Positions 24,579 through 61,112 of a stretch of 64,000 nucleotides of DNA are shown piece by piece (positions within the stretch are counted from its first letter, which is position 1; every line of letters begins with the position of its first letter). The position numbers and the translations under genes were made by a program. The DNA lies in assembly GCA_964036045.1 (NCBI GenBank), contig OZ038382.1:146828961-146892960 (forward strand), in the 5' to 3' direction. Origin of the DNA: Eutreptiella sp. 'Long Island Sound 2002'. Taxonomy: Eukaryota; Euglenozoa; Euglenophyceae; Eutreptiales; Eutreptiaceae. Under the pieces are notes generated by a model. It saw only the letters and a list, made by a program, of their open reading frames with translations. It ran no database searches and was not told the origin of the DNA.

Positions 24579-24593
24579 GGTCCTGTCAGGACC
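24579..24593 (-). promoter_or_regulatory. UGA stop in a perfect hairpin between gag and YR
   Basis: The sequence GGTCCTGACAGGACC forms a perfect stem with the gag TGA (24588-24586) at its centre, followed by C. Gag and recombinase are in the same frame and no other stop occurs between them. This suggests regulated readthrough, though the hairpin could be coincidental in GC-rich DNA. Confidence 0.45.
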
Positions 24594-25218
24594 AGTGTGG
24601 GCATCTAAAGTGCCAGCGGCGTTCGTCGGGGGAGCCCCGCTGCGCGCACCTCTGGCACCCCCCGCTCGGCGGCGAGTCCACAGGGATCCACTCGCCCTGC
24701 CTCGACTGCCATTGCAGTACTCCTCCCACCTCCCTGAATTTCAAGCTCCGCCACGTGAACGCCGATCCTTGTTCCTTCCATGCCTCCTCCAGCGTGGTGT
24801 ACTGGTTGGACTCGGAGCTGGTTTTTCCGTGCGTCCCTGCATACCTTCGGGCATACGCCGCCTGGGACTGGGACACGCAGTCCCAGACCCTCCACGCCAG
24901 CTGCTCTCCTGGGTCGACTGCGGCCTCCGTCGCCTGGCCGCCAAACTCACTTGGTCGGGGGATCTCCCCCACCTCACCAGCTCTAAGGCGCACGTACGCC
25001 TTGATGTTGGACAGCATGAGTCTCATCCACTGTGCCAACTGGGGCTTCTCGAGGGCTCGGTTTACTTCTGGTACGCTCAGTGGGGGCAGACGGGGCCCCT
25101 CCTTCACTGCCACTCGGGCGAGTTGCTCTCTGAGTTCTTGAATTTCTTTGGCTTGCGCCGCCAGCCGCTCCTCGGCTGACTCGTGCTGGTTCTGGCTAGG
25201 CTGCTCAACCCCGTCCAT
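24586..25218 (-). CDS. gag-like protein with coiled coil and zinc knuckle
   Basis: A 210-residue frame in the first position of the YR retrotransposon, the usual place of a capsid-like gag. Residues ~12-37 ('ESAEERLAAQAKEIQELREQ') have heptad spacing for a coiled coil. The middle is helical and Trp-containing. Residues ~186-207 contain C-x2-C-x11-H-x2-C, a zinc-knuckle-like motif expected to bind RNA. The ATG at 25218 follows a leader with an A-rich stretch. Function is inferred from position plus coiled coil and knuckle. Sequence homology was not recognised. Confidence 0.65.
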   Translation of the reverse strand: MDGVEQPSQNQHESAEERLAAQAKEIQELREQLARVAVKEGPRLPPLSVPEVNRALEKPQLAQWMRLMLSNIKAYVRLRAGEVGEIPRPSEFGGQATEAAVDPGEQLAWRVWDCVSQSQAAYARRYAGTHGKTSSESNQYTTLEEAWKEQGSAFTWRSLKFREVGGVLQWQSRQGEWIPVDSPPSGGCQRCAQRGSPDERRWHFRCPHWS

Positions 25219-25297
25219 GGGTTAACAAAAACAAAGACAGGAAAACTGCCTAAACATTGGAGACGCAAACAAAAGTTGAGACGAGGCACAACTAGTG

Positions 25298-38693: not shown

Positions 38694-40135
38694 CTCTCCA
38701 CTTCTCTCTGCTTTCCTTTGGACCCTTTCGCTCCATAGGTCTATCCCGGTCCATCAAGTTGAGGGTGGGTGGGGCGTGATTGTCCATCCATAGAAGCATG
38801 ATGTCCATCAGGTTTGGGGTCGGGAAGGGTGACCAATCATCCACTAAAGCATGTTGTTCCTGAGGTTCAAGTGTAGACAAGGTTCACGGTCATGCAGATG
38901 AATCATTGGCTTCCTATTCACCTCCTACTATATGCATACATAATCACCAAGGTGCTGAGAAGGGCCAAAACAGTAGCAAGAGCCCGCTCATTTGCAGTGT
39001 TGTACTGATAGAAGACAGAGGTGAATCCAATGTGAATCCAAGACAATGACATTGTGTTGCTAAGGTATAGACAAAGGGATAAGATGTACGATGCAGTTGC
39101 CACGGCATTTAGGGTATTTAGGGTGTAATGGGTAATATCTCGGCAACATAGCACCTCAAAAGCAATAGGGTAAGGTAAATTATCGAAATAAAAAGACGCA
39201 CGGTGCGTGGACGGTGCACCCCCTCCCTTGTGTCTGTACAGCTATTGAAACCACCAACTAGAAATATAGGTGTTTGTCAAATATTTTTTGTCTCAAAGGT
39301 TCTCCTTCTATACCACTCCCCTTCGTGTAAGGGGTTGCAAAGTAATGCAGCCCACATGCATGTTGTGGTTTGTTGGCGGGGGGGGTGGGGGTGGCATGCC
39401 GCTTTGGCTTGTTGTTCTCATCTGCAGCTCCTGGTCATGTGCTTTGAGGCTGCTTCTTTCCGGGATGTGGGAGGTGCGAAGCTGGGTAGCTTTGGAGGGT
39501 GTGCATGAACACGTCATTTTTTGACCAGCCCCCCCCCCCCCAAGGGGGGGGTGTGACCTAATTAAAAAGCAAAGGGGGGGGGCATTGCATTCCGTGTTGG
39601 GGGGTACATTAGGGGAGGGGGGGGGTGGAGTTGATGTGCCTTGCATAGCCTGGATCGCATGTTGTACCCGTCAAGCGAAAGATAGGCACAGGTAGTGCAA
39701 GTGCCCGTGGGTTTGCATCAAGACTTATAGATAGCCTACCAAGTCCATTTCCTACGCACATTGCAACTCATCCCACCGGTACCATCAGTTTGTCTAGAAG
39801 CACCTGGCATGCAGTGTTGATGCATGCAGCACCACAAATTGAAGCACTCATCCTTGAACACCCCAAACCATTGTTTAGTGTCATGACCACTTTTGAGGAG
39901 CCCCCACTGCGCATGAAAATCCCCTAGAGTTCTGTGTGTCCGGCTGTCTCATCGTAGCCCCTGTACAAAATTCACAAACAGAAGTGCATCCCTGCTAGCA
40001 AGGGCTTCAATGAAGAATACACAGCTTGAATCATATGTTCCACTCAGGAGGAATTTTCTGAAAGAGAAAGGATCCATGCGGGCACCTCAAATAAAGTGAC
40101 ATTGCGCACAACCGTGAGCGAAGTGTAATCTGTAG
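38694..40135 (+). repeat. 1,442-bp direct repeat, left copy
   Basis: Matches 59671-61112 base for base wherever I compared, with a constant offset of 20,977 at both ends and across homopolymers (C13 and G8 runs have equal length). It does not start TG or end CA, and no primer-binding site follows it, so it is not a typical LTR. Short frames within it are not convincing genes. Possible nature: an exceptionally long target duplication, or a terminal repeat of the giant element. Confidence 0.95.
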
Positions 40136-43100
40136 AAGCACCAGGAAGCACCAGCGGCAACACCAGCGACCCCAACACCCACCAACAACAAAACAACACG
40201 AAAAGCCACCCAACACTGCCCAACGACCGCACCCAACCGATCCGGTCCCCCACCGGCTCGCACCCAGAACCACCGCCACCGACATCCACGCCATCAGAAA
40301 CACCAACACCGCCAAAAATCAAGCCAGCACAGCACCCTCACCAACACCGTCACCACCGGCACCAACGCCTACGACACCTACGCACGCCACCGCCGGTTCC
40401 AGCACCTACATCACCCAAGCCAACGGCATCAAGCACACCATCGCCGGCAACACCCCACCATCAGCGTCACCACCAGCAACCTCTGCCACCGGAGGACACC
40501 GAAACCGCCACGGCCGGTGAGCCAACAAACCACCAAGCCCCGGCCAGGGGAAGCGAGGGCACGCGCCCGGAACCACCAAGCAATGCAATCCCCGGCGACA
40601 CCCACACCACCGGCGCCGCCAACACCACCCTCACCCACGACACCACCCGGAGCAACACCTACGCCACCTACACCACCACCAGCAGACCACACCACCTACT
40701 GCACACCCCCCCAGACAGAGCCACAGAAACCGACCACCGCCCTGAACGCAAGCCACGGACCACCCACACACAGACCCACGCCAACCACCACCAGCATCGG
40801 CAACGTCCGAGACGCCGAGAACCATAGCGACACCCACAACGACCTCACCACCGGCATCACCGACACCGACACCGGCAGTACGACCTCAGCACCGACAAAC
40901 CAGAGCATCAACGGCAATCGCCACGGCAACACCGCCCGGTACGACACCATCGGCATCAACAACACCAAGGGAGCCAACACACAGGCCAGCGACACCCATG
41001 GGTACCTCCACCAGGAGTGGCGAGGTCCCACCCCCGCCGGCAGAACACCACCATCCACCAGGGCAACACCCGCATCGGCCGCAGCTCCACCGGCGGCGCC
41101 CTCGCCAACACCGTCACCAACACCGCGACGGCCAGCCACGAGTGGCACGCCCGGAACCGCCGACCACCCAAACACAGGCCGCGCCCAGCACCAACACCAC
41201 GCCAACAGACCACCACAACACACGCCAACCACCAAGTAACACATAAGGCACCCTCGCCTTCGGCAACACCAACGCCACCAACACCCACGGCACTATCCAC
41301 ACCGCCACCAGCCCCACCAACGACGGGCCGAGGTGCCGTCACCTACAACGCCCCCAACACCACCACCACGGCCCCGCCACCTAGGGCAACCCCACCAAGG
41401 ACGCCAGCACGGCTAGCGAACGAACGCCACCGAGCCCTCAGCCAGGAGAGACGAACGCCCGCACCCAGAAACACCCGAACGGCCACGCCCAGACCCAGGG
41501 CCAGGAACTGCGACACCCGCACCGCCGCCAGCACCCAAACCGAACACCACAACACCCTCACCAACGGGGACGCCCGGAACCAACAACGGACCAACAGCGG
41601 CCAAGTTACACCCAAGGCGTTCCAACCGCGCCACCCACCGGCCCACACCCAGAACCACCACCAGCACCAGCAACAGCCACTGACAACCCACACACAGACC
41701 CACACCAACCACCAGCAGCATCAACAACATCAGCGACACCGTGAACCATAGCAGCGCCCGCAACGACCTCACCACCGGCACCACCGACGGCGCCACCGGC
41801 AGTGCGACCTCACCGACAGCAACCCGGAGCATCCCCCATCCCGCGTCCCGGTGAGACACCATCGGCAGCAAGGACACCGAGGGGGCCAAGGCCAACCCAC
41901 CAGCCAACGACGCACGTGGGAACCTCCGCCAGGAGTGGCGAGGTCCCCCCTCCGCCGTCAGAACACCGCCAGGGCAGCACTTACAACACCCTACAACGCC
42001 AACACACACAGCTCCCCCGGCAGCACCCCCACCAACGCCAACACCGGCACCACCGACAGCGGCAACACGGCGACACCACCACCCAACCGCAGCAAGGTCA
42101 CCCTAAACCGCAATCGCAGCAACACCTGTCACTACGGACCCACGGACAGCCGACACCACCAGGACCACAGACCGGCCAAACACCAGCCACGAATGGCACG
42201 CCCGGAACCACCGAACACCAGCACACAGGCCACCGGACCACCGCGAGACACACCACCGCCCCTAACACCCCGGCACAGAGTAACACCTAGGGCGCCCCCA
42301 TCGACGACACCACCCAGGACGCCACCACGGCTGGCGAACAAACGCCACCGGCGCCGCCCACCAGGCCCCCAACCAAGGGTAGAAACAACAACGCCACACG
42401 CCATCGCACTCACCGCATCGAAATCACCCGGAGCAACGTCAACATCAACCAGGGGTCCCCACCACCCACCCAAGCAGCACAAAACACCACAGCAACACCA
42501 CCACACCCTCACCACCAGCGACACCACCGCCAGCACCCTCCGCCAGGAATGGCGAGGAGAAGGCCCAACAGCGCGGACCCACCCAACGTCCCCGGCACCC
42601 TCACCATCGGACCGTCACCACCGGCGCCGACCCCCAACACACCGCCGTCACCAACGCCACCGACCCCGGACGCGAAAATCACACAGCCCGCACACACGGC
42701 ACCAGCCAGAGCAACGCCGACACCACTCCCGGCCAACTCACACGAACACCACCGGAAGCACCACCGTCGACCGAACACCACGGCGACCCCAGGGTACGAG
42801 TCCCCCCCACCATCTGCACGGCCAGCGACGCCGTCACCGGCACCAACCGGAACACCGACAACGACAGCCTCACCAACAACCGACACCCCCCTACCGCTGC
42901 CACCCACCAGTCACGCCACCCGCCGTCAAAGCCACCCACCAATGCCGCACCCCGAACCACACTTACACCCGAAACCGGCACCAGCACGCCCGGCCGAACC
43001 GTCAATGGCACCACCGCCATGGCACCGCCTACGCTCACCACCGCCACCACCACCCCACGCGAGACCAGGAACCCCCGCCGTCGCCAACGGCCTCAACGAG

Positions 43101-43831
43101 CACCGACACCACCAACACCACCACCGCCGGACAGGGACTACCCACAAACCAGGAACATCTCCACCACCAACAACCAATACACCACCCGCGGCACCCCACC
43201 ACCGCCGACACCACCACGGCACCCATCACACCTCCACCACCGGAGGCGACGTGGGCCACACCACCCGTCAACTACAGCACCCTCGCCACCACCGCCACAT
43301 CCGGCCCACGAACGTTACCGCCGACAACACCACATACGCCCATACGTCACCCACGCCATGCTCACCGACCATCACCTCGTCATCAGAGACACCAACACCA
43401 CCGGCGACGACGACAGCGACAACAGCTGACCCACCAGCTAACCACCATCAACCATAGCCCAGCACCAGCTTCATCTACTCTAACGCCCATACCACCCTCG
43501 CCAACAGCGCCGCCACCGACACAATCATCCACTCCGGCACCCACACCACCCCCACCACCAACATCACCAACACCACCACCCCCAAGGTCAGGGCCCGCGG
43601 GAAACAGAACGGCAGAGCGAGCACGCCACCACCCGCACGCGTCGCCCACCCTATCGTACACCGCTCCGCAACACGCCCCCCCCCGCTTCCCCTGACAGGG
43701 CGTGCGCTCCAGCCCACTGCTGGGAAGACGACTTCGACATCCTCCCGGCCATCCGACACCTACTGGCGGCCACGGCCCCGCGCCCACAAGCCCACCAGCA
43801 ACCCACGGAACCGCAAGAGCCCGACCACCCC
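40136..43831 (+). repeat. 5' region with degenerate ~0.92-kb tandem repeats
   Basis: Phrases recur about 920 bp apart: 'ACACACAGACCCACRCCAACC' at ~40768 and ~41693, 'ACGGCTRGCGAACRAACGCC' at ~41409 and ~42327, 'AGGAGTGGCGAGGTCCC' at ~41013 and ~41933, and 'GGCACGCCCGGAACC' at ~41143 and ~42195. Copies are diverged and contain indels. Long open frames occur in all plus frames because stop codons are rare in C/A-rich DNA. They switch and do not agree between copies, so I call no gene. LINE 5' UTRs are often built of promoter monomers; that role here is an inference. Confidence 0.6.
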
Positions 43832-46800
43832 ATGCCACCACGCTCCATATCCCCTGCGTCCACCGCAGACCGGAACGCGGAACACCAGCGAGAGGAGCCC
43901 GACCCCGGCCGCGCCGCCACGCCCCCACCGCCCCCCCCCCCAAAGGACATCTACGCCACGCTGGCCACCACCCTAGCCCCCATGGACGCCGAGCAGTACT
44001 ACCAGTCCGTCCAACGAGACCTCCCTGAGGACCACGCGACCCTCCAGGGGTGGAAGCAGGAGAAAAGGTACGACAACGAGTGGGGCACAGAGGAAGACCT
44101 TCTCTGGGACGACACCTGGAAAGGCACCGCGGACACCTTCCTGGAGGCAGCAGCCGAAACCTACCCCCGCCCGCCCGGGGACACCAGACACGGCCTCCAC
44201 GCCCTCCTAGCGTTCCACAGCTGGAAACACCGCCACACCGTCACCCTCCACCCCCTCGACCACAATCCGCACCGATGGACACCTGAAGACGACGCCACAG
44301 CCACCATCACCGTACAGCAAAGCCCCGAGAACCCGGAGGAATACCACATCACCTGGGACGATCCGGCACCCCACCCCCCCGCCTCCCCCACCCTCCCAGA
44401 TGTCTTCGCCGCCATCAGTGCAGAGCTCCAGGAGGCCAAAGCCCCCCACCAACTGGACGAAGACATGCCCCAGGCACCATCACCATCAACCACACAAGAC
44501 CAACCCCGCACAGAGCCCCTCATCCACCCCATCACCACAATGGAGCTCCCCCCACAACACCGCACCACCCCAGACCGAAACGGGTTTCGAGACCTGCCGC
44601 GGGAATGGGCGGTCCACAACGGCACACTCCGATGGGACGAAATCACACCGGGCCTCCAGGCCATCCGCCTCCACTCAATCGCAGAGCCCACCACCACCTG
44701 GGCACTACCGACGGACCGCCACCACCTCCTCCTCACCGTCCAAGGCGATGCCACGATCACACCCACGGAAGGAGACCCCGTAACAGCAGCCGCCGCCCAC
44801 GCCGTCCACATACCCCCGCAAGCATCGTCGGCACCTATGACGGTGCATCCAGGCCCCACCCCTTGGCAGGCCATCGTCGTCACCTACCCCGCCCCCAATG
44901 ACCACACACATACCTGGCAGCAACGATGGGAGGACATCCGAGGGGACCTCCTCCAAGAACACCTAGGTCTCACACGCACCCACCACACCCTACAACCGAT
45001 ACGAGGAGTAGGCCAAGCGTCACACGGCATACACGCCCCGGGAGTATGGGCCTACGCCACACCCATAAACCCACATGCAGCGGAGGACATCAAGACCGCC
45101 CTATCCATCCAGCAAGCCCAGACCCAAACCCCGCACCGCAACACCCAACGAGGCTACACAATTTGGTGGGCGTACCAAGACCATGACACCCTCACCCCCC
45201 AACCGGGGGCCCCCCCTCTAGACACCAACACCACCGCCCTCCTCCAAGCCGCAACAGCGGCAGCCACACAGGTAGGGGCCCCGGAAACCTGGGGCCCACA
45301 ATACCTGGTCGAAACCAAAGTGGCGCCCCACGCGAAGGGCCAGGACAAGCCCCCAACACCGAAGCCGCTCCACCCCCCGCTCAAGCTAGACCCGACGGAG
45401 CACACCCCCCAGGATGAATGGGCGACCCACTACATCATCCCCCACACCACCACCCGCAAGAACGACGCCGCCAAGATCACCGTCACCCGCCACCTCCCCC
45501 ACACCACACAGGTGTATGAGCTGACGGCCCCCAACGTCCTCGTCACCCGTCGCCGACACGACGAGCGATACACCATACAGGCGGAAGGGGCCGCCGCGAC
45601 CACCCTGTACACATGGGCAACACGGGGGGACCTCCCACACCCCACCCTCCACCACGCCCCCTCCTGGCCCACCCCCTTCCACACAGCGGACCGCCCCAAC
45701 AAGAAGCCCAAACACACGGGTGTGCACACCCACGCCCAGGAGGCCCAGCACCGACACGAAGCGAAACGCAAGGCCCGCACCCTCCACGACGACCACACCA
45801 TCCCCCGCATCGGCGCCCCCCCCGCCAGGGTATCAGATACCACCCACAACCGCACGATCACAGGCATCACCACGGACTGCCTGAACCCAGCGGCATCGCG
45901 GGCAGACGCCGTATGGATCAGCGAAGGGCGCTCCCACACACGGGCGGTGGCGCGCCTCCACAACATCCAACCCCACAAACTCCAGCGCGCCGTTGGACCC
46001 TTCGCCGTACACGTCACCCCGTACGGCATCGACCACCCCCGGTGTGAGCACCATGACCCGCCCTGCTCCACCCCATGCACCTCGCCCCTCCGCCAACCGC
46101 TGCCGGCCCCCACCATCACGGGCAACATGTACCTGGGCACCGTACCGGGAGACCCGGGCATATACATCCTGCCCAACAGGTCCAGGGAACACGCCATCCC
46201 CCTCCACTGTGTGGAATCCCTCGCCCTGGGACCACCCCCACCAAAACACCAACACCAACACATCCCGGGGGACAAACGGACACAGGCCCCAGACGGGGGA
46301 AAAAAGGCCCACCAACGCGCCCTGGCCCACATCACCCTCCACCCCGCAGCCCACCTACCAAAGGACTTCGGCACGGAGCGCCACATCGTCCTGGAGGGCC
46401 AAGCCCACCACATCATCACCGCCGCCCTGTACACCCTCGCCGCCCACGAACGCCACTGGGACCCCACAACCATCCCAGCAATGCCCCCACCGCCCCAAGG
46501 CCCCAACGATCCCGTCACCCCCTTCCACATCGATCAACTCCTAAGCCGCAAGGCCCCCCCACACCTCCACCCCTCCAGGATACCACTAGCCATTGCATCG
46601 TGGGACACCCTGGACACCCCCCCCCAACAACCCGCCATCCACATCCTCAAAGCGGACACCCAATGGTGGGTCCTCCACTGGGCACACGGAGTCCTCATGG
46701 CGGCCCAGGCCTATACCCCGGAAATGGACCCGGAAGACCCCCCACGGGGCCAGCAGCGACTCCTCCAAGCCACCACCCTCACAGGCCGCGAAGGCGCCCC

Positions 46801-47719
46801 CTGGGAAGCCCTCCACACAGCACTCTACTGGGCTCAAGGCTCCCCCAAAGGCCCGGACACACCGGAACCCACAGAGGCCTGGGTCAGGCAGGCCAAGGCC
46901 ATGAGGAACTACCACCTACACCACCCCTTCGACGACAGCCCCGCTGCACTGCCATGGCCAACAGATCCCCCGGAGACCGTACGCAAGCTCGCCGACATCG
47001 TACGCAGCCACGCGAAAGCGAAAATGCAAACACCGGCAGAACCCCCACTGAGGGATCCAGACCAGCAAGCAACGCACCCCTTCTTCCAACCCCATGCCCC
47101 CCCAGCCCCGCCACCTCCAGTCCCACCCAAGCGAGCGAGACGACAAAAGGGCGCACCCGCCCCCAGCCAAGCCGGAAAAGCAGCAACCTCCCGACCCCCC
47201 GCATCCCACCCGACCCACCCGACGAACCCAGACCAAGCATCCTCGTCATCCTCCCTCCCACCACTACCACCGCCCCACCCGGACCAGGCATCCTCATCAT
47301 CCTCCCTCCCGCCACCAGCACAGGCCCCGCCCACAGCGTACCCAGGGTTCGAAAAAGGTGCGAAGGTCCAACAGCCCTTCCGCAACGACCACACAGGCGA
47401 CTGGATCTGGTGTGAGGGCACGATCCAGTACCGCCTCAAGGGACAAGGGGACAACGGGGGGCCACAGATCCGGGTAATCTGGCACCGCCAAAAGGAGCTA
47501 GACCAGGGCAACAGCGCCCCGGACAAACCACTCGGCGACACCCTGGAACTCACCAGCGCCCACCCCATCCGGCTCCGCACCGAAGAGAACAAGGCCCACA
47601 CAGGCACCAAATACACTGGGGAGCTCCCCCCGGAGTGGAGCCAAGGCCTCCCCCCGCCGCGCCTACCCAAACGCCCACAAACCGGCAAAAAGTCCCCAAC
47701 CCCCAGTCCCCCTCCCTGA
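43832..47719 (+). CDS. giant-element ORF1, 1295 residues, unknown function
   Basis: This is the first large ORF of the element, in the ORF1/gag-like position. The N-terminus is Pro-rich, then acidic and Trp-containing ('WGTEEDLLWDDTWKGTADTF'). The middle (~200-1000) is well-mixed protein rich in His/Thr/Pro. Near the end is a duplicated 'PDQASSSSSLPP' and a compact C-terminal module (~1165-1260: 'GAKVQQPFRNDHTGDWIWCE', 'IRVIWHRQKELDQG') that could be a small beta-barrel; I do not recognise a named domain. There is no obvious CCHC knuckle. It ends in UGA followed by CGG, and the same frame continues without another stop into ORF2, so a 3,079-codon ORF1-ORF2 fusion by readthrough is possible. 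The start at 43832 is the first good Met. Confidence 0.8.
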   Translation: MPPRSISPASTADRNAEHQREEPDPGRAATPPPPPPPKDIYATLATTLAPMDAEQYYQSVQRDLPEDHATLQGWKQEKRYDNEWGTEEDLLWDDTWKGTADTFLEAAAETYPRPPGDTRHGLHALLAFHSWKHRHTVTLHPLDHNPHRWTPEDDATATITVQQSPENPEEYHITWDDPAPHPPASPTLPDVFAAISAELQEAKAPHQLDEDMPQAPSPSTTQDQPRTEPLIHPITTMELPPQHRTTPDRNGFRDLPREWAVHNGTLRWDEITPGLQAIRLHSIAEPTTTWALPTDRHHLLLTVQGDATITPTEGDPVTAAAAHAVHIPPQASSAPMTVHPGPTPWQAIVVTYPAPNDHTHTWQQRWEDIRGDLLQEHLGLTRTHHTLQPIRGVGQASHGIHAPGVWAYATPINPHAAEDIKTALSIQQAQTQTPHRNTQRGYTIWWAYQDHDTLTPQPGAPPLDTNTTALLQAATAAATQVGAPETWGPQYLVETKVAPHAKGQDKPPTPKPLHPPLKLDPTEHTPQDEWATHYIIPHTTTRKNDAAKITVTRHLPHTTQVYELTAPNVLVTRRRHDERYTIQAEGAAATTLYTWATRGDLPHPTLHHAPSWPTPFHTADRPNKKPKHTGVHTHAQEAQHRHEAKRKARTLHDDHTIPRIGAPPARVSDTTHNRTITGITTDCLNPAASRADAVWISEGRSHTRAVARLHNIQPHKLQRAVGPFAVHVTPYGIDHPRCEHHDPPCSTPCTSPLRQPLPAPTITGNMYLGTVPGDPGIYILPNRSREHAIPLHCVESLALGPPPPKHQHQHIPGDKRTQAPDGGKKAHQRALAHITLHPAAHLPKDFGTERHIVLEGQAHHIITAALYTLAAHERHWDPTTIPAMPPPPQGPNDPVTPFHIDQLLSRKAPPHLHPSRIPLAIASWDTLDTPPQQPAIHILKADTQWWVLHWAHGVLMAAQAYTPEMDPEDPPRGQQRLLQATTLTGREGAPWEALHTALYWAQGSPKGPDTPEPTEAWVRQAKAMRNYHLHHPFDDSPAALPWPTDPPETVRKLADIVRSHAKAKMQTPAEPPLRDPDQQATHPFFQPHAPPAPPPPVPPKRARRQKGAPAPSQAGKAATSRPPASHPTHPTNPDQASSSSSLPPLPPPHPDQASSSSSLPPPAQAPPTAYPGFEKGAKVQQPFRNDHTGDWIWCEGTIQYRLKGQGDNGGPQIRVIWHRQKELDQGNSAPDKPLGDTLELTSAHPIRLRTEENKAHTGTKYTGELPPEWSQGLPPPRLPKRPQTGKKSPTPSPPP

Positions 47720-47761
47720 CGGGGCAAGGGCCGAGGGCACAAGCCTCCACAGCCCCGGCCC
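47717..47761 (+). promoter_or_regulatory. candidate UGA-CGG stop-codon readthrough signal
   Basis: ORF1's only in-frame stop before ORF2 is UGA at 47717-47719, directly followed by CGG. UGA-CGG plus a downstream stem-loop is the known 'type II' readthrough context of some plant RNA viruses. Eight bases downstream, GGGCCG (47728-47733) can pair with CGGCCC (47756-47761); an alternative stem is GGGGC (47721-47725) with GCCCC (47752-47756). The frame stays open to ORF2's domains. No readthrough product has been observed, so this is inference. Confidence 0.5.
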
Positions 47762-47854
47762 GCCCCCACCGAGGCCACCGTCAACCTCCTCGACCTCAAC
47801 CACCCGGCCGTCACATACTCCAAGGACGCCACAACCGCCCTCCAAGAGCTCCCG

Positions 47855-50800: not shown

Positions 50801-53068
50801 GCCCAAATGCGGGTCCTGCACCACAGCGGGGCACACCACACCCCCTTTCTACAGCTTCCCGAATGGCCACAATACCGCCTCTTCCACCACTACCTCACAC
50901 AGACGGCACGAACAGCGGGACACACTCTACCGGGCAACAAAGACATGCGCAAAGCCTACCGAGAATTCACAAGACAACACCCGCGACCCATCCCAGAGAC
51001 ACCGCCCTACGCACCCACCGGATCGAAGCACGAACCCGTCCCCCCAGTAACGGGCCCAGTCCCACCACTAACCCTACTACTGGCCCCGAATGAAGCCAAA
51101 CCCACGCAGACCACCGTCATCCACCACGGGGCAAAATGGCGCATACCGAAACACCACATGACCGCCCGAGACCTACCAAAGGTCCCCCAAGATTCCCAGA
51201 GCATGCCACGCACATGTTGGGCCTGTGACCCCGAGGCACCAACCGCACCATGGCCCGTGCTACACCTCATAGCACGCCACCACACCCACCCCACGACCCA
51301 CCTGCCACCACAGGCCTACGCATGGATAGCCCCATGGTTCCACCGCACCGACACTAACCCCACGGTAGCATGGAACCCCGACCACGCGCCCAAATGGCTC
51401 TTCACCACTACACCCACATGCCCCCGCCCCGACCCGGCAGGGGTCGCCATCCGGTACAGCATGTACGAGCCAGGCAGAACGGGCAAACACGAGCACCCCT
51501 ACTATCCACTCCACCACTCCTGCCACACACCGGAGCACCGAACACAAACCCTCACATGCCACGACCTAAACCCCGACACAGCCTACATCCTCCACTACAT
51601 CTACTCCTACCTCACACAAGGACAGCCGGAGCAGGGACTCATAGCCCTGTCCCCCCAAGCAAAGCACATCATCTCCAAAGGAATAGGGGTGTACGCCACC
51701 CCCATCCTACAGCCCACAACCCCAGTAGCCCACCTCGCCACGGGCCTTGCCATATACGCCTACCTGCCCATGAACCCATGCCGCCTCCCACAGCCATCAC
51801 CGGCGGACCGGCTCTTCTTCACCGACGCCTCAGGCGAATCCGCCCTCACGCCCATCACCGGGGGGGCCACCCTGCAACTAACCCACACCGGGGAACACTA
51901 CCACATGGACCACCACACGGGCCACACCACCTATGGGGCCTCTTCCCACGGGGAGCTAGGGGCCATGGCCGACGCCATCACCGAGGTCGCGGCCCACCTA
52001 CCCGCCCACTCCCCGCACATCGTCCGGGTCTGGTTCGTGGTAGACGCCACTGTCGACACGCACCTGCTCCTCCGCATAGCAAGGCAACCACTTCACAAAG
52101 CAACCGCGACGAGCCTCGGCACCCAGGCACTGCTACTCTGGAAAGCCCTACGCAGCCTTCCCCCCTACGTCCAACTCCACATCGTGAAACAAGAGTCCCA
52201 CAGGCACCAATACGGAAATGGTAAGGTCGACAACCAGGCAGTACACCAGCGCACAACACACCTACCAGCCCTCCAGATCCCTGACCTCGGCCGCAACCAC
52301 ACACACCTCCAACACGTGCCCCCTGTACCCGAGCCCCATCAGACCCCGGACTGGGTACCAGAGGACGCCCCCTATTCCTCCCACGACAGAGCGTACCACT
52401 ACCCCAACCCCGTCCAACATCTCGCCCGCGTGCTCGGCGACGCAGACAGCCGGGCGCACATCCAGGAGCTCCAGGACAGACTGCAAGTCCCCCTCTACCA
52501 CTCAGCGCTCCGCCCAGCAAACGTCCCAGCCCACCTCCAGAAACGACGCATCCAGCTCCTCAGGGAGCAGCTGCCTTTCCTCACCAGGGTCGCCAGATGG
52601 CTCGCCCGCAAGCACATTCACGTCCCCGGCGAACACACCCGTTGCCCATGCGACCACACCACCCCGGAGGACTGGGAACACTTCAAGAAATGCCCCCTCC
52701 ATACAGACAGGGACACCCTAGTGGGCTGGTCCCCGGCGGAAACCCTGCGGCAACACGAAGGATGGCCAGCCCACAGCCACGCACACCAGGCCACCGAGCA
52801 CCTCTTCCGGGACCCCCTGATCAAAGAAGCCACCATGAGAGGGGCAGTGACACAGGCCCTGCACCGACACCTCACCAAACACACGGAAAGCCCCATGGAA
52901 GCAGCAGCACACCTCCAGCTAGAAGCGGTCCGCAGAGCAGCAGCCCAAATGGTACACCGCAAACACCTCCTGCTAACACACGCGGAACAACTCACCGACC
53001 CCACCGCCAGGGAACACATGCAGCGTCTCATCCATTACCATGCCGTGCATGACCCAGACGTCCACTAA
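47855..53068 (+). CDS. giant-element ORF2: APE endonuclease - reverse transcriptase - RNase H
   Basis: This 1737-residue frame has an APE-type endonuclease (~1-215) with 'LLTFQEQG' (catalytic Glu), 'INTHVPFG', 'IIGDMNA', 'SRIDVCYGD' and 'GHSPLHI' (SDH reads GHS). The RT starts near 450 with 'KTPGYDGLPAEAY' and shows 'PDNWRPI', 'SLDVKGAFPNTPW', 'GSGVPQGGAEGPFLY' and catalytic 'FADD' (~675). RNase H (~1320-1460) has 'FFTDASGE', 'GELGAM', 'VVDATVD' and 'GNGKVDNQA'. A Cys/His motif ('RCPCDHTTPEDWEHFKKCPL') lies at ~1597-1616. The first APE strand ('VNLLDLN', DNA about 47779-47799) lies upstream of the ATG at 47855 in the same open frame, so translation probably enters from ORF1 or a non-AUG start. 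Stop is TAA, inside ORF3. Confidence 0.93.
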   Translation: MAQGPGWVPHLLTFQEQGLQRDDPPETTPMYTPDQKAYKCYWHKGTPLYAQAGIHVHLVHHLSVPGRLGVYEVVGDGWQLNVINTHVPFGEATEPFLQALAEAYRQMAMLAPTVIIGDMNAAPTPADRGGQATPQDQAVRDTIEMLGLVDLTASLEGQPSHFPHQTDAAPSRIDVCYGDPTTIIRAEARYGPLPLGPTGHSPLHIRLTIPNLPPSPPEDADQGLPPPLKMPPLHDKHAWSQYHRAIDRARRIQPDPTDLLTAMRTAAVASGFQQHPHTDDDQPPTALGDMLHDLWHAKQQLATLLHTDTPQTRHQIHHCRTHIAQIRADLQRWHIHRQQRIAQEHERYAQHELPYKAIRHLNDAMTDTGHRTITTVRQEDGSLTNDPATVLQATQDSFLRQHTPTQDTLDPDTQAKIDRLPRVFNHAQRRHLEKRPFTIHEVRKAIHSLRQHKTPGYDGLPAEAYYHLPAHLLRILAHRLWDIVTGRTPLPPDWANVVRPLYKKGDWANPDNWRPIVCAVTEVKIVWTILLRRIRPHLDPHIPASLWGAIPGRSPHEAIFLQDTIADMDPVDLIIASLDVKGAFPNTPWLLLEAVWKRLGLPFYNFTSDYIRTRKYTVRTGAGLTPFLEPGSGVPQGGAEGPFLYLLVTLPLALAIEQDYPAYAPYPLLSPLVGFADDTNLTVAHTPHDPHAPDPGPTVTQQANDLLDVTVSYLSHNNLIVHPTKSVAMIKGSATPPTLGPQGPPMQVVTTTTHLGVVQAANPEDATLPPKLQSHLAHLPRYASPTTKALSLSHQSLAYYLTGVLNASIGFQALHLTHPTTALQPATRAVTKAWAAHGGWPTSIPTRAIRAAWPHYGDAIGDEVKAAYTRHTALLLHRMTHNHSPEVREVTAIRLQAAQRARNTCPRWVLHQTGMPTNMNTRLWNHLQLLLPSPHHAILTNHTCPEKGPLAVLCGDLHHHPKGTIHTIDLVGASITVVYVTLAQMRVLHHSGAHHTPFLQLPEWPQYRLFHHYLTQTARTAGHTLPGNKDMRKAYREFTRQHPRPIPETPPYAPTGSKHEPVPPVTGPVPPLTLLLAPNEAKPTQTTVIHHGAKWRIPKHHMTARDLPKVPQDSQSMPRTCWACDPEAPTAPWPVLHLIARHHTHPTTHLPPQAYAWIAPWFHRTDTNPTVAWNPDHAPKWLFTTTPTCPRPDPAGVAIRYSMYEPGRTGKHEHPYYPLHHSCHTPEHRTQTLTCHDLNPDTAYILHYIYSYLTQGQPEQGLIALSPQAKHIISKGIGVYATPILQPTTPVAHLATGLAIYAYLPMNPCRLPQPSPADRLFFTDASGESALTPITGGATLQLTHTGEHYHMDHHTGHTTYGASSHGELGAMADAITEVAAHLPAHSPHIVRVWFVVDATVDTHLLLRIARQPLHKATATSLGTQALLLWKALRSLPPYVQLHIVKQESHRHQYGNGKVDNQAVHQRTTHLPALQIPDLGRNHTHLQHVPPVPEPHQTPDWVPEDAPYSSHDRAYHYPNPVQHLARVLGDADSRAHIQELQDRLQVPLYHSALRPANVPAHLQKRRIQLLREQLPFLTRVARWLARKHIHVPGEHTRCPCDHTTPEDWEHFKKCPLHTDRDTLVGWSPAETLRQHEGWPAHSHAHQATEHLFRDPLIKEATMRGAVTQALHRHLTKHTESPMEAAAHLQLEAVRRAAAQMVHRKHLLLTHAEQLTDPTAREHMQRLIHYHAVHDPDVH

Positions 53069-56000
53069 CCCGCTCCGCGCCCCGCACGCGCCCCCCGTCT
53101 CCATCCACAGGTCTCCAAGGCACCACCACAGCGCCCCGAGACCCGTCTCGCACCCAAGAAGCCACCCGGCACCGCCCAGTCCGGCCGAACCCAGCCAGGG
53201 CCAACCATCCATCGACGTAGACGCGCAAGACCCCGGCAGCCCATCCAGCCCACCCCCCCCGGACCCAGGACACCCTCCCCTCACACCGGCCACCATCCGC
53301 GACCCCGACCTCCTCCGAGCGACCCTCCAAGACAGGGCCCCGACCACCCCCCTGGGCTGGTACCGCCTACAAGAGGACTGGACCAAGCTCACCGTCAAAG
53401 CCCTCCGGGACCTGACCACCCCAGGCAGCGGCCTCCACGAGACCGTAGTAGACCTCGTGCTCTGGCGAGCCCGCAAACACACCCGGGGCCAGCCCATCTG
53501 GATCCCCCCCATCGAGTGGGGCCAGGCCCTGACGCACGACACCGGCAGCAACGTCACGCGTCGAGGGACCGTACGCCTACGGCGGGCCCAAGCGGAGACG
53601 GACCACCCAGCGGACCCGAACCACCCGGAGCAGTGGGAACAGGCCACCGCGCCCAACCGCGACACCGCCCTCCGCGCCGCCGGCCTCCGCACCCCGGACG
53701 ACGACCTCCCCCCCCCACCTACAGACAGTGACCACCCCCCGCCGGAGGTCTGGGTTACAGTCCTCGAGCGCGGCCACTACTACGTGATAGCCGCTATGGC
53801 TACGTCCCACGGCCCGCAATGGATCATCCAGGGGACAGACACCATGTTCGCCCCGGAGACCGCCCCACCAGGGGCAGTGGGGGACCCCACCACCCAGCAC
53901 AGGATCCTCAGGGGTCTCCTCCAGCCAGGGGACACGCCCCCAGCCCGCGCCCTGGCCCAAATCACCTCAGGGAAGGCGGGCTACCACCTGGGATTGTCCA
54001 TGCTCTGCCTAACCCACTGGATCCAGCGCCACTGGCCACCCACGGGGACCGTGCCCTGGGTTTGGGCCATCCCCACCGCCCACACACAAGTCGAAGCAGG
54101 CCCGGACACACGACCAAACCCCCCCCCCAGGCCGCAGCAGTCCCTCACCTGCGGGTACCACGCCATCCACAGGGTCCTCAACCGCGCGGGTCTTAGCCCA
54201 AAGCTAGCATGCCCCCTTCCCACCACTGACCAAGAGGTCCACCAGATACGAACGCTCGTCTGCGAAATCCTTGCCGCGGCAGCAGAAGACGGCAAGCTTC
54301 TCCTCCAAACCGCCCGGCCTACAACTGCCCACGCAAGCGCGCAGCAAGCGGACACATACACCGGCGCAGCACAACCCCCCGCACAATCCCCGCCCATGCC
54401 CCCCCCCTCTCGCTGCTCAACCGGAGACCCACACACGCCCACTATCGCGCGCACCCCCGGGCCCCGCGACACGGGCCTCCCCCACCCGCCCGAACACCAG
54501 CACACGCCCGCCACACACCCACCCACCGGCCACCCTTCACCGCCCCCCACACTCGGCAACCCACACACACCCGCCAAGGGGAGCCCCACGCCCCGCGGCA
54601 CGCCCACCCCACCCAGTGGCCCGCCCACGCCCCCCACACACACCCCGGAGGACCCAGGCCCACCCCCCCCGGCCCCTGAATGCAGCCCACGCGAACTGTT
54701 CCCCCCCGCTGACACAAACCCACACGACCTCGCACATTGCAGGACCCGGGCCCAGCCGAGCCCAGAAAGAGAAGGCCGCAGCCCCGCGCCTCCCTCCCCC
54801 GCCGCAGCCGACCAGATCGGCCCGCCGGGCCGCCAGGTCACGACCGGGCCCCCCCAGCCGCCCGCCCCCAACCTACAACCCGGGGAGATGCCCTCCATCC
54901 TCCCCGCCGTGGCCGCGGCAGAAGCCGCCGCCCGCAAGCCCGCCCGCATCACAGCCCAACCCGCGTCCACCACCTCCTCCTCGTCCTCAGCCTCGTCCAC
55001 CTCCTCCACCTCATCCTCCGACCCCCCCCTCCCCGCCAAACTCATCCTCAAGGCCACGGCGAAAGCCGCAGCCGCGGCCGCACGCACCAACCCCCCAACC
55101 CCCACACAGGCGACTCAGGCACCCCGGCAACCCACCGGGACGACCCCCGACCCGGCATCGACGCCCTCACACCTCCGGACAGAGGTACTCCTCAACCTGG
55201 AACCGGACCCCAACCCCAAACCCGACCCCAAACCCAAACCGGACCCCGACCCCAAACCCAACCCCAAACCCAAGCCGGCGCCCACGCGACCACACACAAC
55301 ACCGCATACGCAACGACACAAAACCACCCGATACCACCCCCGCCCAAGCCCTCGCCCAAGCCAGGACCCCCCACCCACCACGACCCGCGCCCCCCTCCCG
55401 CCGGCACCCACCACCACCGCGGAGACGGCCACCCAGCACGACCCCCTCCAAACCCTCGTCAACATCCCCGTCATCAAACGCCCCGTCATCCATCCCCCAC
55501 AAACCACCACCACCGCCGGCCAAACCGACCCAGGGACGTGGGACCCCTCAACCATCGTCACCGTCAAGCCCGCCCCCCAACCCTTCCTCCATGCCCACCA
55601 CATAGTGCAGCCCCGGGGACTGCCCACGATGCCCACCCCCCCACCCCCACAAGGGGGACCGGAAAACCCACAAGGACTCCATGGGCCATACCCGCAACAC
55701 CAACCCCACCACTACACACACCACCACCACCAGCGGCCCCACCACCACCACTACCAACACCACCCCCACCACTACCACTGCCCACCGCCCTACCCCACCG
55801 GGCCACAACCCCCCGTACACCAACAGCACCAGCGGACGGGATGGCAGCCGCCGAACGCCCCGCTCGCATACCCACCCCCCCCCCCGTACCAGCCACCACC
55901 CCCGTACCAGCCGTACCCCCGCGGCCACCATCCGATGGCCGAGGGGGCCCCATGGACGACGGGGGATCTCCCCCCCCAACCAGCACCGCGTGACGCCCCG

Positions 56001-57146
56001 TACCCCCCCGGCCACCATCCGATGGCCGAAGGGGCCCCAAGGACGACGGGGGACCTCCCCCCCCAAGCGGCGCCGCGCGAGCCCCCCCAGAGGCCGCCGA
56101 CGCTTCCGGACTGGCCCGACTCGAGCGACGAGGGCCGGTCCCGCAAGCGGCGGCACTCCCGCTCCCCCCCCGCACGGCACACTCGCCCACGGCACCCACA
56201 CTCCCACCGCGCCTCAACCACCCACTCGCGCCGCTCCCGCTCCCCCAGGTACCACCACGACCCCCAGGGACCCCGCTCCCGTCGCTCCCGCTCCCCCGGG
56301 CACCACCGCGAGCGCCACCGCCGCCCCATGTCCCCCTCCCCCTCCCCCCACCGGCCACCCAGCCCCCGCCACCACCACTCCCGCTCCCCCCGACGCAGCC
56401 AGGCACGCCGCCGCCGCCCCACGTCCACCTCCCCCTCCCCCCACACGCCCCGCCGGGCTCCCCGTTCCCCCCGCCACCCGTACCCATCCACCACCCCCAG
56501 CCCCCGCCACCACCACTCCCGCTCCCCCGGAAGCCACCGAGCGCGCCACCGCCGCCCCATGTCCACCTCCCCCTCCCGCTCCCCCCTCCGCCCGTACCCG
56601 TCCTCCACCCCCAGCCCCCGCCGCCGCCGCTCCCGCTCCCCCACCCACCGCCACCCCCGCCACCACCGCAGGTCCACATCTTCCCCCCGCCGCTCCAGGA
56701 CCCCAGGCACGGACCCCTCCCCCCCCCGGGCCCCCGCCCACCTCGCCTGGTGGTCTCCCTCCGCTCTGCAGGAGCTCCGCCGCTGGGTAAAATGGGCCGG
56801 GGGAGCGGGAAGACACAGAGGGGTGCACACGGTGCATACCTTCGAGGAGGTGCGCACCCGCACCCCCGCAAACCCCAATGAGGCCGCCCCGGAGACCATC
56901 ATGCCGCAAGCGGCATGGGAGGCCCTCCTCCGCGATGCGGTCCAGGGCCTCCGCCCCCCCTACACCCCCCAAGTCCTCCGCCGGTGGCTCCAGGCCACCC
57001 ACCCCCAAGCCTGGGCCACCGGCGCCCCCTCCCCACCCCGCCCCTCCCACCACCACCACACCAGGAAGGGGCAGGACAAGGGCAAGGGAAGGGCAAGGGA
57101 CACCAAGGACCACACAGGCAAGAGGGCACGGAAGGGCCCCAAGTGA
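53040..57146 (+). CDS. giant-element ORF3: Ulp1/C48-like cysteine protease with His-rich and RS-rich tail
   Basis: A 1368-residue frame overlaps the end of ORF2 by 29 bases in the +1 frame. Residues ~240-385 resemble an Ulp1/adenain-type protease by motif order: 'ERGHYYVIAA' (His ~245), an Asp in 'IQGTDTMF' (~267), Gln and Cys in 'QQSLTCGYHAIHRVL' (~366-371). Downstream are long Pro-rich regions, a Ser run (~640-660), Lys-Pro-Asp repeats (~720-750), a His-rich stretch (~885-915), duplicated 'GHHPMAEGAP' segments, and an Arg/Ser domain (~1035-1220) like those of splicing factors. A compact C-terminal region has 'WWSPSALQELRRWVKW' and a Lys-rich end. Ulp1-like proteases are known in some LINEs but usually not in a separate downstream ORF. 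Start could be M1 or M4; reinitiation or +1 frameshift is possible. Confidence 0.75.
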   Translation: MPCMTQTSTNPLRAPHAPPVSIHRSPRHHHSAPRPVSHPRSHPAPPSPAEPSQGQPSIDVDAQDPGSPSSPPPPDPGHPPLTPATIRDPDLLRATLQDRAPTTPLGWYRLQEDWTKLTVKALRDLTTPGSGLHETVVDLVLWRARKHTRGQPIWIPPIEWGQALTHDTGSNVTRRGTVRLRRAQAETDHPADPNHPEQWEQATAPNRDTALRAAGLRTPDDDLPPPPTDSDHPPPEVWVTVLERGHYYVIAAMATSHGPQWIIQGTDTMFAPETAPPGAVGDPTTQHRILRGLLQPGDTPPARALAQITSGKAGYHLGLSMLCLTHWIQRHWPPTGTVPWVWAIPTAHTQVEAGPDTRPNPPPRPQQSLTCGYHAIHRVLNRAGLSPKLACPLPTTDQEVHQIRTLVCEILAAAAEDGKLLLQTARPTTAHASAQQADTYTGAAQPPAQSPPMPPPSRCSTGDPHTPTIARTPGPRDTGLPHPPEHQHTPATHPPTGHPSPPPTLGNPHTPAKGSPTPRGTPTPPSGPPTPPTHTPEDPGPPPPAPECSPRELFPPADTNPHDLAHCRTRAQPSPEREGRSPAPPSPAAADQIGPPGRQVTTGPPQPPAPNLQPGEMPSILPAVAAAEAAARKPARITAQPASTTSSSSSASSTSSTSSSDPPLPAKLILKATAKAAAAAARTNPPTPTQATQAPRQPTGTTPDPASTPSHLRTEVLLNLEPDPNPKPDPKPKPDPDPKPNPKPKPAPTRPHTTPHTQRHKTTRYHPRPSPRPSQDPPPTTTRAPLPPAPTTTAETATQHDPLQTLVNIPVIKRPVIHPPQTTTTAGQTDPGTWDPSTIVTVKPAPQPFLHAHHIVQPRGLPTMPTPPPPQGGPENPQGLHGPYPQHQPHHYTHHHHQRPHHHHYQHHPHHYHCPPPYPTGPQPPVHQQHQRTGWQPPNAPLAYPPPPPYQPPPPYQPYPRGHHPMAEGAPWTTGDLPPQPAPRDAPYPPGHHPMAEGAPRTTGDLPPQAAPREPPQRPPTLPDWPDSSDEGRSRKRRHSRSPPARHTRPRHPHSHRASTTHSRRSRSPRYHHDPQGPRSRRSRSPGHHRERHRRPMSPSPSPHRPPSPRHHHSRSPRRSQARRRRPTSTSPSPHTPRRAPRSPRHPYPSTTPSPRHHHSRSPGSHRARHRRPMSTSPSRSPLRPYPSSTPSPRRRRSRSPTHRHPRHHRRSTSSPRRSRTPGTDPSPPRAPAHLAWWSPSALQELRRWVKWAGGAGRHRGVHTVHTFEEVRTRTPANPNEAAPETIMPQAAWEALLRDAVQGLRPPYTPQVLRRWLQATHPQAWATGAPSPPRPSHHHHTRKGQDKGKGRARDTKDHTGKRARKGPK

Positions 57147-59204
57147 GGGCAGGCACACGCAGGGACAGGGCGCCGGAAGCGACACCACATGGGGTCAGGA
57201 CACCACCCAAGAACCAGGAAGGAACGGGAACGGGGACCAAGACACGGAGGAAAAGGGCACCACGACAGCCCCAGAGGACACGAGACCAAGGCACAGGCCC
57301 CCAGGGAGGGCAACCCCACGGACCGTCACGCGACCACACCATGGGCTATAAGGGCCGGGCTGCGCTACCGTCGCGGTTTGACGCAGAGTATTGCTACGGG
57401 GGCTTGATCTCGGCTGGTCTCACGTCCGTGAGGGCGTCCGTCACCAACCTGTTGCGACCAGTGGAGGAATGGCACTGCGGCGGCGCACCGATCCCGTCCA
57501 TGATGAATATCGAACATCGCAAGGGGAAACGGAACGCTGTGATCGATCGCGAAGGCTTTGGTGCTGCTGGACGGTGCCCCCCTTCAACGCCATCTCCGAG
57601 CGCCGTGCAGACTGGAAGTACCAAGAATACTACCGATGCCCCGGACCCCAGCAGTCCAGCACCGGAGATATGGACATCCCCCTGACCCTACAGTGTGCGC
57701 TCATCCCTGCCGGCGGCACCGACCCGGACCCTGCCGGCGCAGCCGAGCTGCAGTGAAAGCCATTCGCCACTCAAACAGCGTTCGGAAGCCACCTCCACCG
57801 TCCGACTCCTGATGTCTGTTTGTCTGCCTTGGAGAAGGAACGCTTTTCCTACACCCCGAGTACACCTGCCTGTCTGCGAGGCCCGGTGAAGATTGAGTCC
57901 ATGGGTGAGAGTCAGTGTGCACGCCCCAAGGACACCGTGATCATTCAGCAGAATTTCCCGAAGACCTAACCGACCCACACAGGCCAGGCTGACCTCCACT
58001 GACCCACCGCGGCACCACGCGAGACCACGGCACACCACACCACAGCGCGCCACAGAGCAACGCACCACAGCACGACGCGACGCGACGCGGCACAGAGCGG
58101 CACAACACGACACAACTGACCCTAACCTGAGGGACTAACCGAAGCCAGCCACCGCACACCCGGGAAGGCGCCGCGCCACCACGCCGCACACCGGCACCAC
58201 AGGCCACACACGGGACCACAGAGCGCCAGGCGACAACGGTGACGGACCACCCAGAAGATTACAGCCGGCACCGCGGAGGGGTAAGGACACGAGCAACCCC
58301 AGCCCCCTAACCCAAAACCACCAGCAGCCGCCTGGCGCAGCCGCCCAGCCGCAGAGCCAGGACCTAACCCAGCAAGAAGGGGCGCCGAGCCCACAGTGTA
58401 CAGAGCCCACCCGACCCATGGGGCCGGAACATGGCCACACAGAACCCAACTGAAGACAGCAGCCCGGAAGACAACACTGAATACAGGCCAGTGCGTGCGC
58501 CAGCCCAGGGAAGGCAGAGGGAGGAACAGGCAAGCCCCCCCCCAAAAAAAAAAAAAAAAGGGGAGGGGGGAAGGGGAAAAGGCACGAAAACAGCCCACAG
58601 CCGCCCAACCACCCGCCAACACCACCAAAGGCGGCCAGGCCCCCCCCCCCCAGACGGAAAAAAAAAAAAAAAAAAAAAAAAAAGGGGGGACCCCCGCAGA
58701 GGCACAGGCGAACCACCCCCCCAAAACCGGCAACACCAAGCCAGTAACAGCGGACCACGGGGAAAAGGAAAAAAAAAAAAAAAAAGAGAGCCACCAGCCC
58801 AGCCCGAAAGAAAAGGGATGGAGGGACAGAGACCACAAAACCCGAAAAAAAAAAAAAAAAGAAAAAAAAAAAAAAAAAACACACACCCCGACAACCCAGC
58901 CAAGACGGACTGGGCACAGGCGAGACCCGGGCCCGGCACACACGCCCACACCGCGCGCCGGAACCGGAAACGGCGGGGGGCAAGCGGGACGCCCACGAAA
59001 CCACACACGTCCCAAAAGCAGACCGAAACCGAAGCCCAACCACGAACACCACAAATAGCCGACACTAGGGGGACAACACCACAAAACGAGCCCAAAAGCA
59101 CCCACCCTAAACCCCAGCCAGGACAGACGGGGTTAACAAAACCCGCACCCAACCGCCAACCGGACCCAAACACAAACACCACACAACAGTAGGAAACCCA
59201 GTGC
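57147..59204 (+). other. 3' UTR of the giant element, with A tracts
   Basis: No supported gene. Positions 57147-57900 are mixed sequence with several short overlapping open frames. Positions 58000-58130 are CAC/GACGC-rich. Between 58544 and 58879 are five A runs of about 16, 26, 17, 16 and 18 bases, partly preceded by C runs. They are internal, so they are not simply the poly(A) tail of this insertion. They may come from earlier 3' ends or from slippage. Confidence 0.6.
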
Positions 59205-59670
59205 CCACAGCCCGGGCACTGAGGCAGCCCGTGCCATGCAGGTGACCCGGCCAAACGAGATCCGGAGCCCGGGGGTAAGGCTGCATCCTAAGGCCTGCGC
59301 TGCTTTGGGACTCGAGGCGGAGCGTGCGACACCCAAGCGCCTCGGAACCCTAGTACCAGGAACGTGCATGCACGCCTTGGGAACGGGATACGCCAGGAAG
59401 TCCGGTGAACCCCTAGGGTTCCGCCCAAAGGAGGGGACGTGCGCAAGCACGGGGGCACACCCTCCCGGCGAGACAAGCATGTCACGCTGGCGGCGATCAG
59501 CCCTCCCGGCGTAGCCCGGGGCCGCTTTGTTGGGGGCCAACAGTCAGGTCTAGCGGGAAGTAAGCCGCCTCCCCTCTTCACGCGCGAAGCCTCTTCCTGT
59601 TCGTCACAGGGGCGACGCCAGGGGGAACCATGGGGCGCCTCTCCACGACCGAGTGCACCTACCTACCTAC
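59205..59670 (+). ncRNA. hairpin-rich 3' terminal segment of the giant element
   Basis: Recognisable pairings include GGGCAC/GTGCC (59214-59235), GGAACCCTAG (59344-59353) with CTAGGGTTCC (59413-59422), the palindrome CGTGCATGCACG near 59364, and CGTGC-GCAA-GCACG (59438-59451), a stem with a GNRA tetraloop. The segment ends with (TACC)n at 59659-59670. LINE reverse transcriptases often recognise a structured 3' UTR, so this is a candidate recognition RNA rather than an independent ncRNA gene. Confidence 0.4.
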
Positions 59671-61112
59671 CTCTCCACTTCTCTCTGCTTTCCTTTGGAC
59701 CCTTTCGCTCCATAGGTCTATCCCGGTCCATCAAGTTGAGGGTGGGTGGGGCGTGATTGTCCATCCATAGAAGCATGATGTCCATCAGGTTTGGGGTCGG
59801 GAAGGGTGACCAATCATCCACTAAAGCATGTTGTTCCTGAGGTTCAAGTGTAGACAAGGTTCACGGTCATGCAGATGAATCATTGGCTTCCTATTCACCT
59901 CCTACTATATGCATACATAATCACCAAGGTGCTGAGAAGGGCCAAAACAGTAGCAAGAGCCCGCTCATTTGCAGTGTTGTACTGATAGAAGACAGAGGTG
60001 AATCCAATGTGAATCCAAGACAATGACATTGTGTTGCTAAGGTATAGACAAAGGGATAAGATGTACGATGCAGTTGCCACGGCATTTAGGGTATTTAGGG
60101 TGTAATGGGTAATATCTCGGCAACATAGCACCTCAAAAGCAATAGGGTAAGGTAAATTATCGAAATAAAAAGACGCACGGTGCGTGGACGGTGCACCCCC
60201 TCCCTTGTGTCTGTACAGCTATTGAAACCACCAACTAGAAATATAGGTGTTTGTCAAATATTTTTTGTCTCAAAGGTTCTCCTTCTATACCACTCCCCTT
60301 CGTGTAAGGGGTTGCAAAGTAATGCAGCCCACATGCATGTTGTGGTTTGTTGGCGGGGGGGGTGGGGGTGGCATGCCGCTTTGGCTTGTTGTTCTCATCT
60401 GCAGCTCCTGGTCATGTGCTTTGAGGCTGCTTCTTTCCGGGATGTGGGAGGTGCGAAGCTGGGTAGCTTTGGAGGGTGTGCATGAACACGTCATTTTTTG
60501 ACCAGCCCCCCCCCCCCCAAGGGGGGGGTGTGACCTAATTAAAAAGCAAAGGGGGGGGGCATTGCATTCCGTGTTGGGGGGTACATTAGGGGAGGGGGGG
60601 GGTGGAGTTGATGTGCCTTGCATAGCCTGGATCGCATGTTGTACCCGTCAAGCGAAAGATAGGCACAGGTAGTGCAAGTGCCCGTGGGTTTGCATCAAGA
60701 CTTATAGATAGCCTACCAAGTCCATTTCCTACGCACATTGCAACTCATCCCACCGGTACCATCAGTTTGTCTAGAAGCACCTGGCATGCAGTGTTGATGC
60801 ATGCAGCACCACAAATTGAAGCACTCATCCTTGAACACCCCAAACCATTGTTTAGTGTCATGACCACTTTTGAGGAGCCCCCACTGCGCATGAAAATCCC
60901 CTAGAGTTCTGTGTGTCCGGCTGTCTCATCGTAGCCCCTGTACAAAATTCACAAACAGAAGTGCATCCCTGCTAGCAAGGGCTTCAATGAAGAATACACA
61001 GCTTGAATCATATGTTCCACTCAGGAGGAATTTTCTGAAAGAGAAAGGATCCATGCGGGCACCTCAAATAAAGTGACATTGCGCACAACCGTGAGCGAAG
61101 TGTAATCTGTAG
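59671..61112 (+). repeat. 1,442-bp direct repeat, right copy
   Basis: Identical to 38694-40135 wherever compared. It starts at CTCTCCACTTC right after the (TACC)n end of the giant element and stops at ATCTGTAG, beyond which sequence differs (CTTCGACACGG here, AAGCACCAGG at the left copy's inner edge). Confidence 0.95.

Follow-up and report, generated by a model that had tools for sequence, protein, structure and literature searches.

A 5'-truncated LINE in Eutreptiella between two identical 1,442-bp repeats, probably one very long target-site duplication

A stretch of 64,000 nucleotides from Eutreptiella sp. 'Long Island Sound 2002' (contig OZ038382.1 of assembly GCA_964036045.1, positions 146,828,961 to 146,892,960 of the forward strand; hereafter the window) contains a long interspersed nuclear element (LINE) enclosed by two direct repeats of 1,442 bp (Table 1). 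As described in an earlier note on this DNA, the repeat copies are identical at 1442 of 1442 positions and are offset by 20,977, which comparison of the window with itself upheld. Their edges are sharp, with the identity ending immediately past either one, and they are spaced 19,535 bp apart in a window that contains no N bases. On the plus strand, adenine and cytosine make up 0.69 of the sequence between the repeats, in contrast to 0.48 within the repeat and 0.52-0.53 in the flanks. Because the bias is weaker in the last 500 bp of the element (0.55), composition alone is no marker of its right edge.

Is the window copy a complete element? In a search of the genome (2.28 Gb in 2,205 contigs), a 5' probe taken from 40136-40735 gave 1,315 first-look candidates and 40 scored matches; the 39 besides the window all begin at base 9 of the probe, with 96-98% identity. 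The family is present at dozens of places, and more than 1,000 first-look candidates for each element probe were left unscored. Of 29 sibling loci fetched, 28 (L012 included) match L012 at 98.5-100% over the 200 bp before that point, the exception being L017, where the anchor string was not found; the window shows 28% identity there. At the position of the window's repeat, siblings thus still have element sequence, and the window copy is therefore 5'-truncated, as are the copies at C4:53.4M and C11:58.9M. The usual 5' end of the family lies about 5.7 kb (C3:28.9M) or 6.6 kb (C1:2.2M) further upstream; by their coordinates, these two copies measure 25,258 bp between duplications and about 26.2 kb. 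The earlier note was right in calling the enclosed element a LINE, but the copy is not complete in a family of about 25-26 kb. The 5' region of the family includes a block of tandem repeats with offsets that are multiples of about 157 bp, and of 41 matches to the 5' terminus, 35 start at query base 34 or 35. The C3:28.9M copy carries 34 bp ahead of this usual end (L052:1241-1274), part of which is shared by three other matches that begin at query base 14 or 20.

The 3' end is common to the family. Siblings have (CCTA)n tails, except that each unit in the C4:53.4M copy has an additional C. Among 30 loci fetched by a 3' probe, tails of (CCTA)3, (CCTA)4 and (CCTA)5 occur at 15, 11 and 4 loci, respectively; since the probe itself included the tail and these loci match it at 100%, the tails are partly a product of selection, and one locus, L066, is among the siblings already used. 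The DNA after the tail differs, with 26 of the 30 sharing no 21-mer with another of the set. For the final 500 bp of the element, 40 of the 40 matches listed show 100% identity, which would indicate many recent copies. In collections that may omit the window's own genome, the family was unmatched (viral_contigs and phages) or gave nine pattern matches with none confirmed (genome_contigs).

Does the 1,442-bp repeat belong to the element? A repeat probe of 1,001 bp gave 476 first-look candidates in the genome, and among the 40 scored, 100% matches were found at two places only, both in the window; the other scored candidates show 69-88% identity, each over part of the probe. No 25-mer of the repeat occurs in the 71 fetched family loci (L012-L082), which represent fewer than 71 copies and in many cases lack an insertion flank. 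Because 28 of 29 siblings have element sequence in this position and the fetched loci lack the repeat's 25-mers, the repeat falls outside the element. Its host origin is shown by a paralogue at C5:146826388-146827276 (L009), which lies 41 kb to the left, continues across the left edge of the repeat and has no element inside. The two sequences are 88% identical over 915 aligned positions, about 395 bp falling in the flank and 502 bp in the repeat, and the alignment has small gaps besides a 12-bp indel at the edge.

The earlier note had proposed that, if each copy of the element were flanked by different long repeats, these would be target-site duplications (TSDs). This is what was found when the flanks of six siblings were compared, namely the first six plus-strand ones listed by the 5' probe, which were picked before their insertion flanks had been seen. 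Long TSDs (342-1,442 bp) surround three of these six copies, none chosen for them, and four of seven when the window is counted; those of the siblings are 99.4-100% identical. Each of the four long repeats directly adjoins the tail at its start, and its end lies at the 5' sequence of the element or no more than 12 nt from it. Summed over the four copies, the duplications agree at 3,140 of 3,143 positions, and the insertions are therefore young. Since the C3:28.9M copy reaches the usual 5' end, long TSDs are not limited to truncated copies. In this small sample, very long TSDs appear to be a frequent outcome of insertion by the family.

Table 1. Features of the enclosed element and its repeats in the window, and flanks of the six sibling copies
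Feature	Position	Strand	Details
Left repeat copy; host DNA, probable left TSD	38694..40135	+	Identical to 59671-61112; paralogue; flank-like composition
Putative junction filler, 8 extra nt AAGCACCA	40136..40143	+	Repeats what follows 2 nt further in; all 39 sibling matches begin at probe base 9
5'-truncated copy of the 25-26 kb LINE family, A- and C-rich strand	40144..59670	+	5' probe region 96-98% identical to 39 other places
Possible ORF1 upstream of the reverse transcriptase frame	43484..47719	+	Long open frame, 1,411 amino acids stop to stop
Reverse transcriptase frame	47720..53068	+	1,782 amino acids stop to stop; RVT_1; APE-like and RNase H-like motifs by eye
Third long frame	52977..57146	+	Open reading frame, 1,389 amino acids stop to stop; no Pfam match
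Element 3' end with (CCTA)n tail	59651..59670	+	Six of six sibling alignments stop at 59667-59676; last 2 bp ambiguous with the TSD start
Right repeat copy; probable right TSD	59671..61112	+	Identical to 38694-40135
Sibling copy C3:28.9M			Flanking direct repeat of 782 bp, 1 mismatch
Sibling copy C4:53.4M			Flanking direct repeat of 577 bp, 0 mismatches; 12 nt of junction filler
Sibling copy C11:58.9M			Flanking direct repeat of 342 bp, 2 mismatches
Sibling copy C1:2.2M			Short duplication of about 14-16 bp
Sibling copy C22:13.5M			Short duplication of about 12 bp, 1 mismatch
Sibling copy C3:139.5M, unclassified			Repeat of about 35 bp of unique DNA and a TA microsatellite; tail and repeat separated by additional TA-rich sequence

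How could a LINE come to lie between kilobase repeats of host DNA? The 1,442-bp repeats are very probably host sequence that was duplicated as a single, very long TSD when the element inserted by target-primed reverse transcription. The nuclease of the element would nick the bottom strand just before a (C)T, and the (CCTA)n end of the RNA would be copied from that nick. The far end of the complementary DNA (cDNA) would then be joined to an upper-strand end hundreds of base pairs downstream, instead of about 15; this end might belong to a nicked strand of the same duplex or to a broken sister chromatid. Fill-in would leave the intervening host DNA on both sides of the element. It is plausible, as a conjecture, that the copying of a very long RNA delays the second break and uncouples it from the first. 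The left TSD edges of the four long-TSD copies read TTG/CTCT, GGG/TGAG, ATA/TAGG and CGG/TTCA, with the slash marking the edge; few as these sites are, they suggest that priming occurs ahead of a (C)T able to pair with the tail. The filler of 8 nt in the window and 12 nt in the C4:53.4M copy fits the joining of cDNA ends by repair enzymes. According to the prevailing model, as worded in a passage of PMC4245944, the TSD is determined by where the second strand is cleaved with respect to the first nick; under that model, the second break would have occurred 342-1,442 bp downstream in the four insertions. For the family as a whole, it is about as likely as not that target-primed reverse transcription is relaxed, with cutting or capture of the second strand at a distance of hundreds to more than 1,000 bases and kilobase host duplications as a normal product.

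Other histories might leave a similar arrangement. The repeats lie directly at both edges of the element, as would be the case if they were its own terminal repeats, whether akin to a long terminal repeat (LTR), TART-like or a Penelope-like pseudo-LTR. Siblings carry other sequences there, however, and the repeat probe finds 100% matches at two places only, whereas the element probes find at least 39 other strong ones; this explanation has next to no probability. The new type of terminal-repeat LINE considered in the earlier note is ruled out by siblings that lack the 1,442-bp sequence. An LTR retrotransposon was rejected as a candidate because no terminal repeats common to all copies were found, and a TART-like element because no element sequence is repeated at both ends. 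The left neighbourhood of the repeat holds relatives of parts of it at 72-91% identity, and this might speak for host DNA that was already duplicated in tandem, and homogenised by gene conversion, with the element inserting between the two copies or recombining into them. Such a history is very unlikely: the repeat and its local relatives have clearly diverged, and an exact tandem boundary would be needed at four sites (1442, 782, 577 and 342 bp). A little less probable still is an assembly artefact in which a haplotype or overlap stretch was doubled at the edges of the element. The perfect identity in the window and at the C4:53.4M site would agree with this, as would the fact that assembled sequence alone was compared. 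It is made unlikely by the four sites, where the repeats differ in length and sequence and two of them contain mismatches. Each repeat, moreover, starts at a (CCTA)n-type tail and ends at, or within 12 nt of, the 5' sequence of the element, and the window is free of N. Thus, of the four options raised in the earlier note, target duplication stands by virtue of the differing sibling flanks, the terminal repeats fall, insertion into a tandem repeat is disfavoured and an artefact is unlikely.

A variant of the preferred reading, with which its probability overlaps, is bridging between sister chromatids: the cDNA end would invade a downstream break on the sister, and the LINE would end up in the middle of a tandem duplication. 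This would produce the same final structure, and a passage of PMC7058536 applies the model to a 22.6-Mb L1 case in a tumour, the only duplication length given there and one of another order. The sequence does not distinguish bridging from two distant nicks on one duplex, and the variant is considered possible but rather doubtful.

Several observations weigh against a long TSD. The evidence consists of assembled sequence only. The paralogue has 12 bp at 38693/38694 that are absent from the window, exactly at the presumed nick, and this is unexplained; it also falls short of the right part of the repeat. The sample is seven copies, one of which was picked for its long repeat, and two of the six others have ordinary short TSDs. 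For four further siblings (L068, L071, L073 and L075), searches with 1.5 kb of right flank found no left copy among 40 scored candidates; their right flanks lie in high-copy repeats, and these cases are therefore unsettled.

Are such duplications known from other elements? TART of Drosophila is a non-LTR element with repeats near both ends, as here, but those repeats are its own, whereas the present ones are the host's. R9 of bdelloid rotifers is likewise a LINE with a long TSD, reportedly of about 126 bp, but it is specific for ribosomal DNA. The title of an R9 study cited by PMC2861651 announces an 'exceptionally long target site duplication'. Human L1 has TSDs of about 15 bp in DT40 cells (a passage of PMC4245944), and 'extremely long TSDs' are mentioned for truncated L1 in HeLa cells (PMC2912911, in passing). 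A TSD of 1,228 bp was made by ZfL2-2 in wild-type chicken DT40 cells; according to the part of PMC2666801 consulted, this was one of 25 insertions, the other 24 having alterations of at most 20 bp, in contrast to four of seven copies here. Tumour L1 duplications also double host DNA on both sides of a LINE, but the cases in the relevant passage of PMC7058536 are somatic and of megabase scale. Second-strand cutting and joining by LINEs is described as poorly understood (abstract of PMC6895275). In searches of open-licence PMC text, the titles and starts of abstracts showed neither a LINE family with frequent kilobase TSDs nor a 25-kb LINE. The long TSD is thus already known as a rarity; what is new is its frequency, in a small sample, and the size of the element.

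The element has the hallmarks of a LINE. It encodes a reverse transcriptase (RVT_1, E 2.8e-15 in Pfam) whose closest solved relatives are chains of L1 ORF2p (E 8.8e-14), and it has no long terminal repeats of its own, the flanking repeats varying by copy. The 3' end with its short-repeat tail is common, 5' truncation is variable and TSD length ranges from about 12 to 1,442 bp. Protein searches place relatives of the reverse transcriptase frame in clusters of up to 758 member sequences. An Exo_endo_phos domain is found in three of nine members of the relatives' alignment; the window protein has no Pfam match to it, and its apurinic endonuclease (APE)-like motifs were seen by eye. The RNase H claimed in the earlier note was not borne out by Pfam, which gave no match at E <= 0.5 in any of the nine members; conserved acidic residues were recognised by eye only. 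The family thus resembles APE-type LINEs (L1-like and RNase H-bearing clades) in its RVT_1 related to L1 ORF2p, the Exo_endo_phos of some relatives, 5' truncation, the common 3' end with a short-repeat tail and its TSDs. It differs from them in its length of 25-26 kb, its TSDs of 342-1,442 bp in four of seven copies and its 5' tandem repeats. The candidate ORF1 frame has no significant Pfam match. The third frame includes proline-rich and serine/arginine-rich stretches, noted by eye; a CGYHAIH stretch resembles a cysteine protease by eye only, and a protease there was rejected, 53739-54266 having no PDB match. Rfam gave no match at gathering score across 38000-62000.

A second LINE on the minus strand of the window (1336-7814) has RVT_1, RNase H, zf-RVT and a weak Exo_endo_phos match; it is 22% identical to the first LINE over part of the reverse transcriptase frame, and proteins at 94-97% identity to it occur elsewhere. 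A perfect direct repeat of 66 bp (8887-8952 and 25232-25297) encloses about 16.3 kb. Within this region lie a 41-bp satellite of 154 copies (10610-16927), a direct repeat of about 465 bp at 91% identity around 2.2 kb (17180-17643 and 19876-20308), and a minus-strand RVT_1 frame (20778-24740) that is DIRS-like by eye. The right end of the window (61351-64000) consists of tandem repeats of about 1.1 kb, 96-98% identical and with TTAGGG-like stretches, which run on into L010 and are about 75% related to an inverted stretch at 35180-36144.

At 25-26 kb, the family is perhaps among the longest of non-LTR elements. Its flanks are a warning against taking every pair of long direct repeats that surrounds a retroelement for LTRs. 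With TSDs from about 12 to 1,442 bp in one family, they would offer a genome-wide readout of the distance between the two breaks. A LINE of this kind could duplicate host sequence of the size of an exon or enhancer and, if integration is indeed relaxed, a segment of host sequence can be doubled at each insertion.

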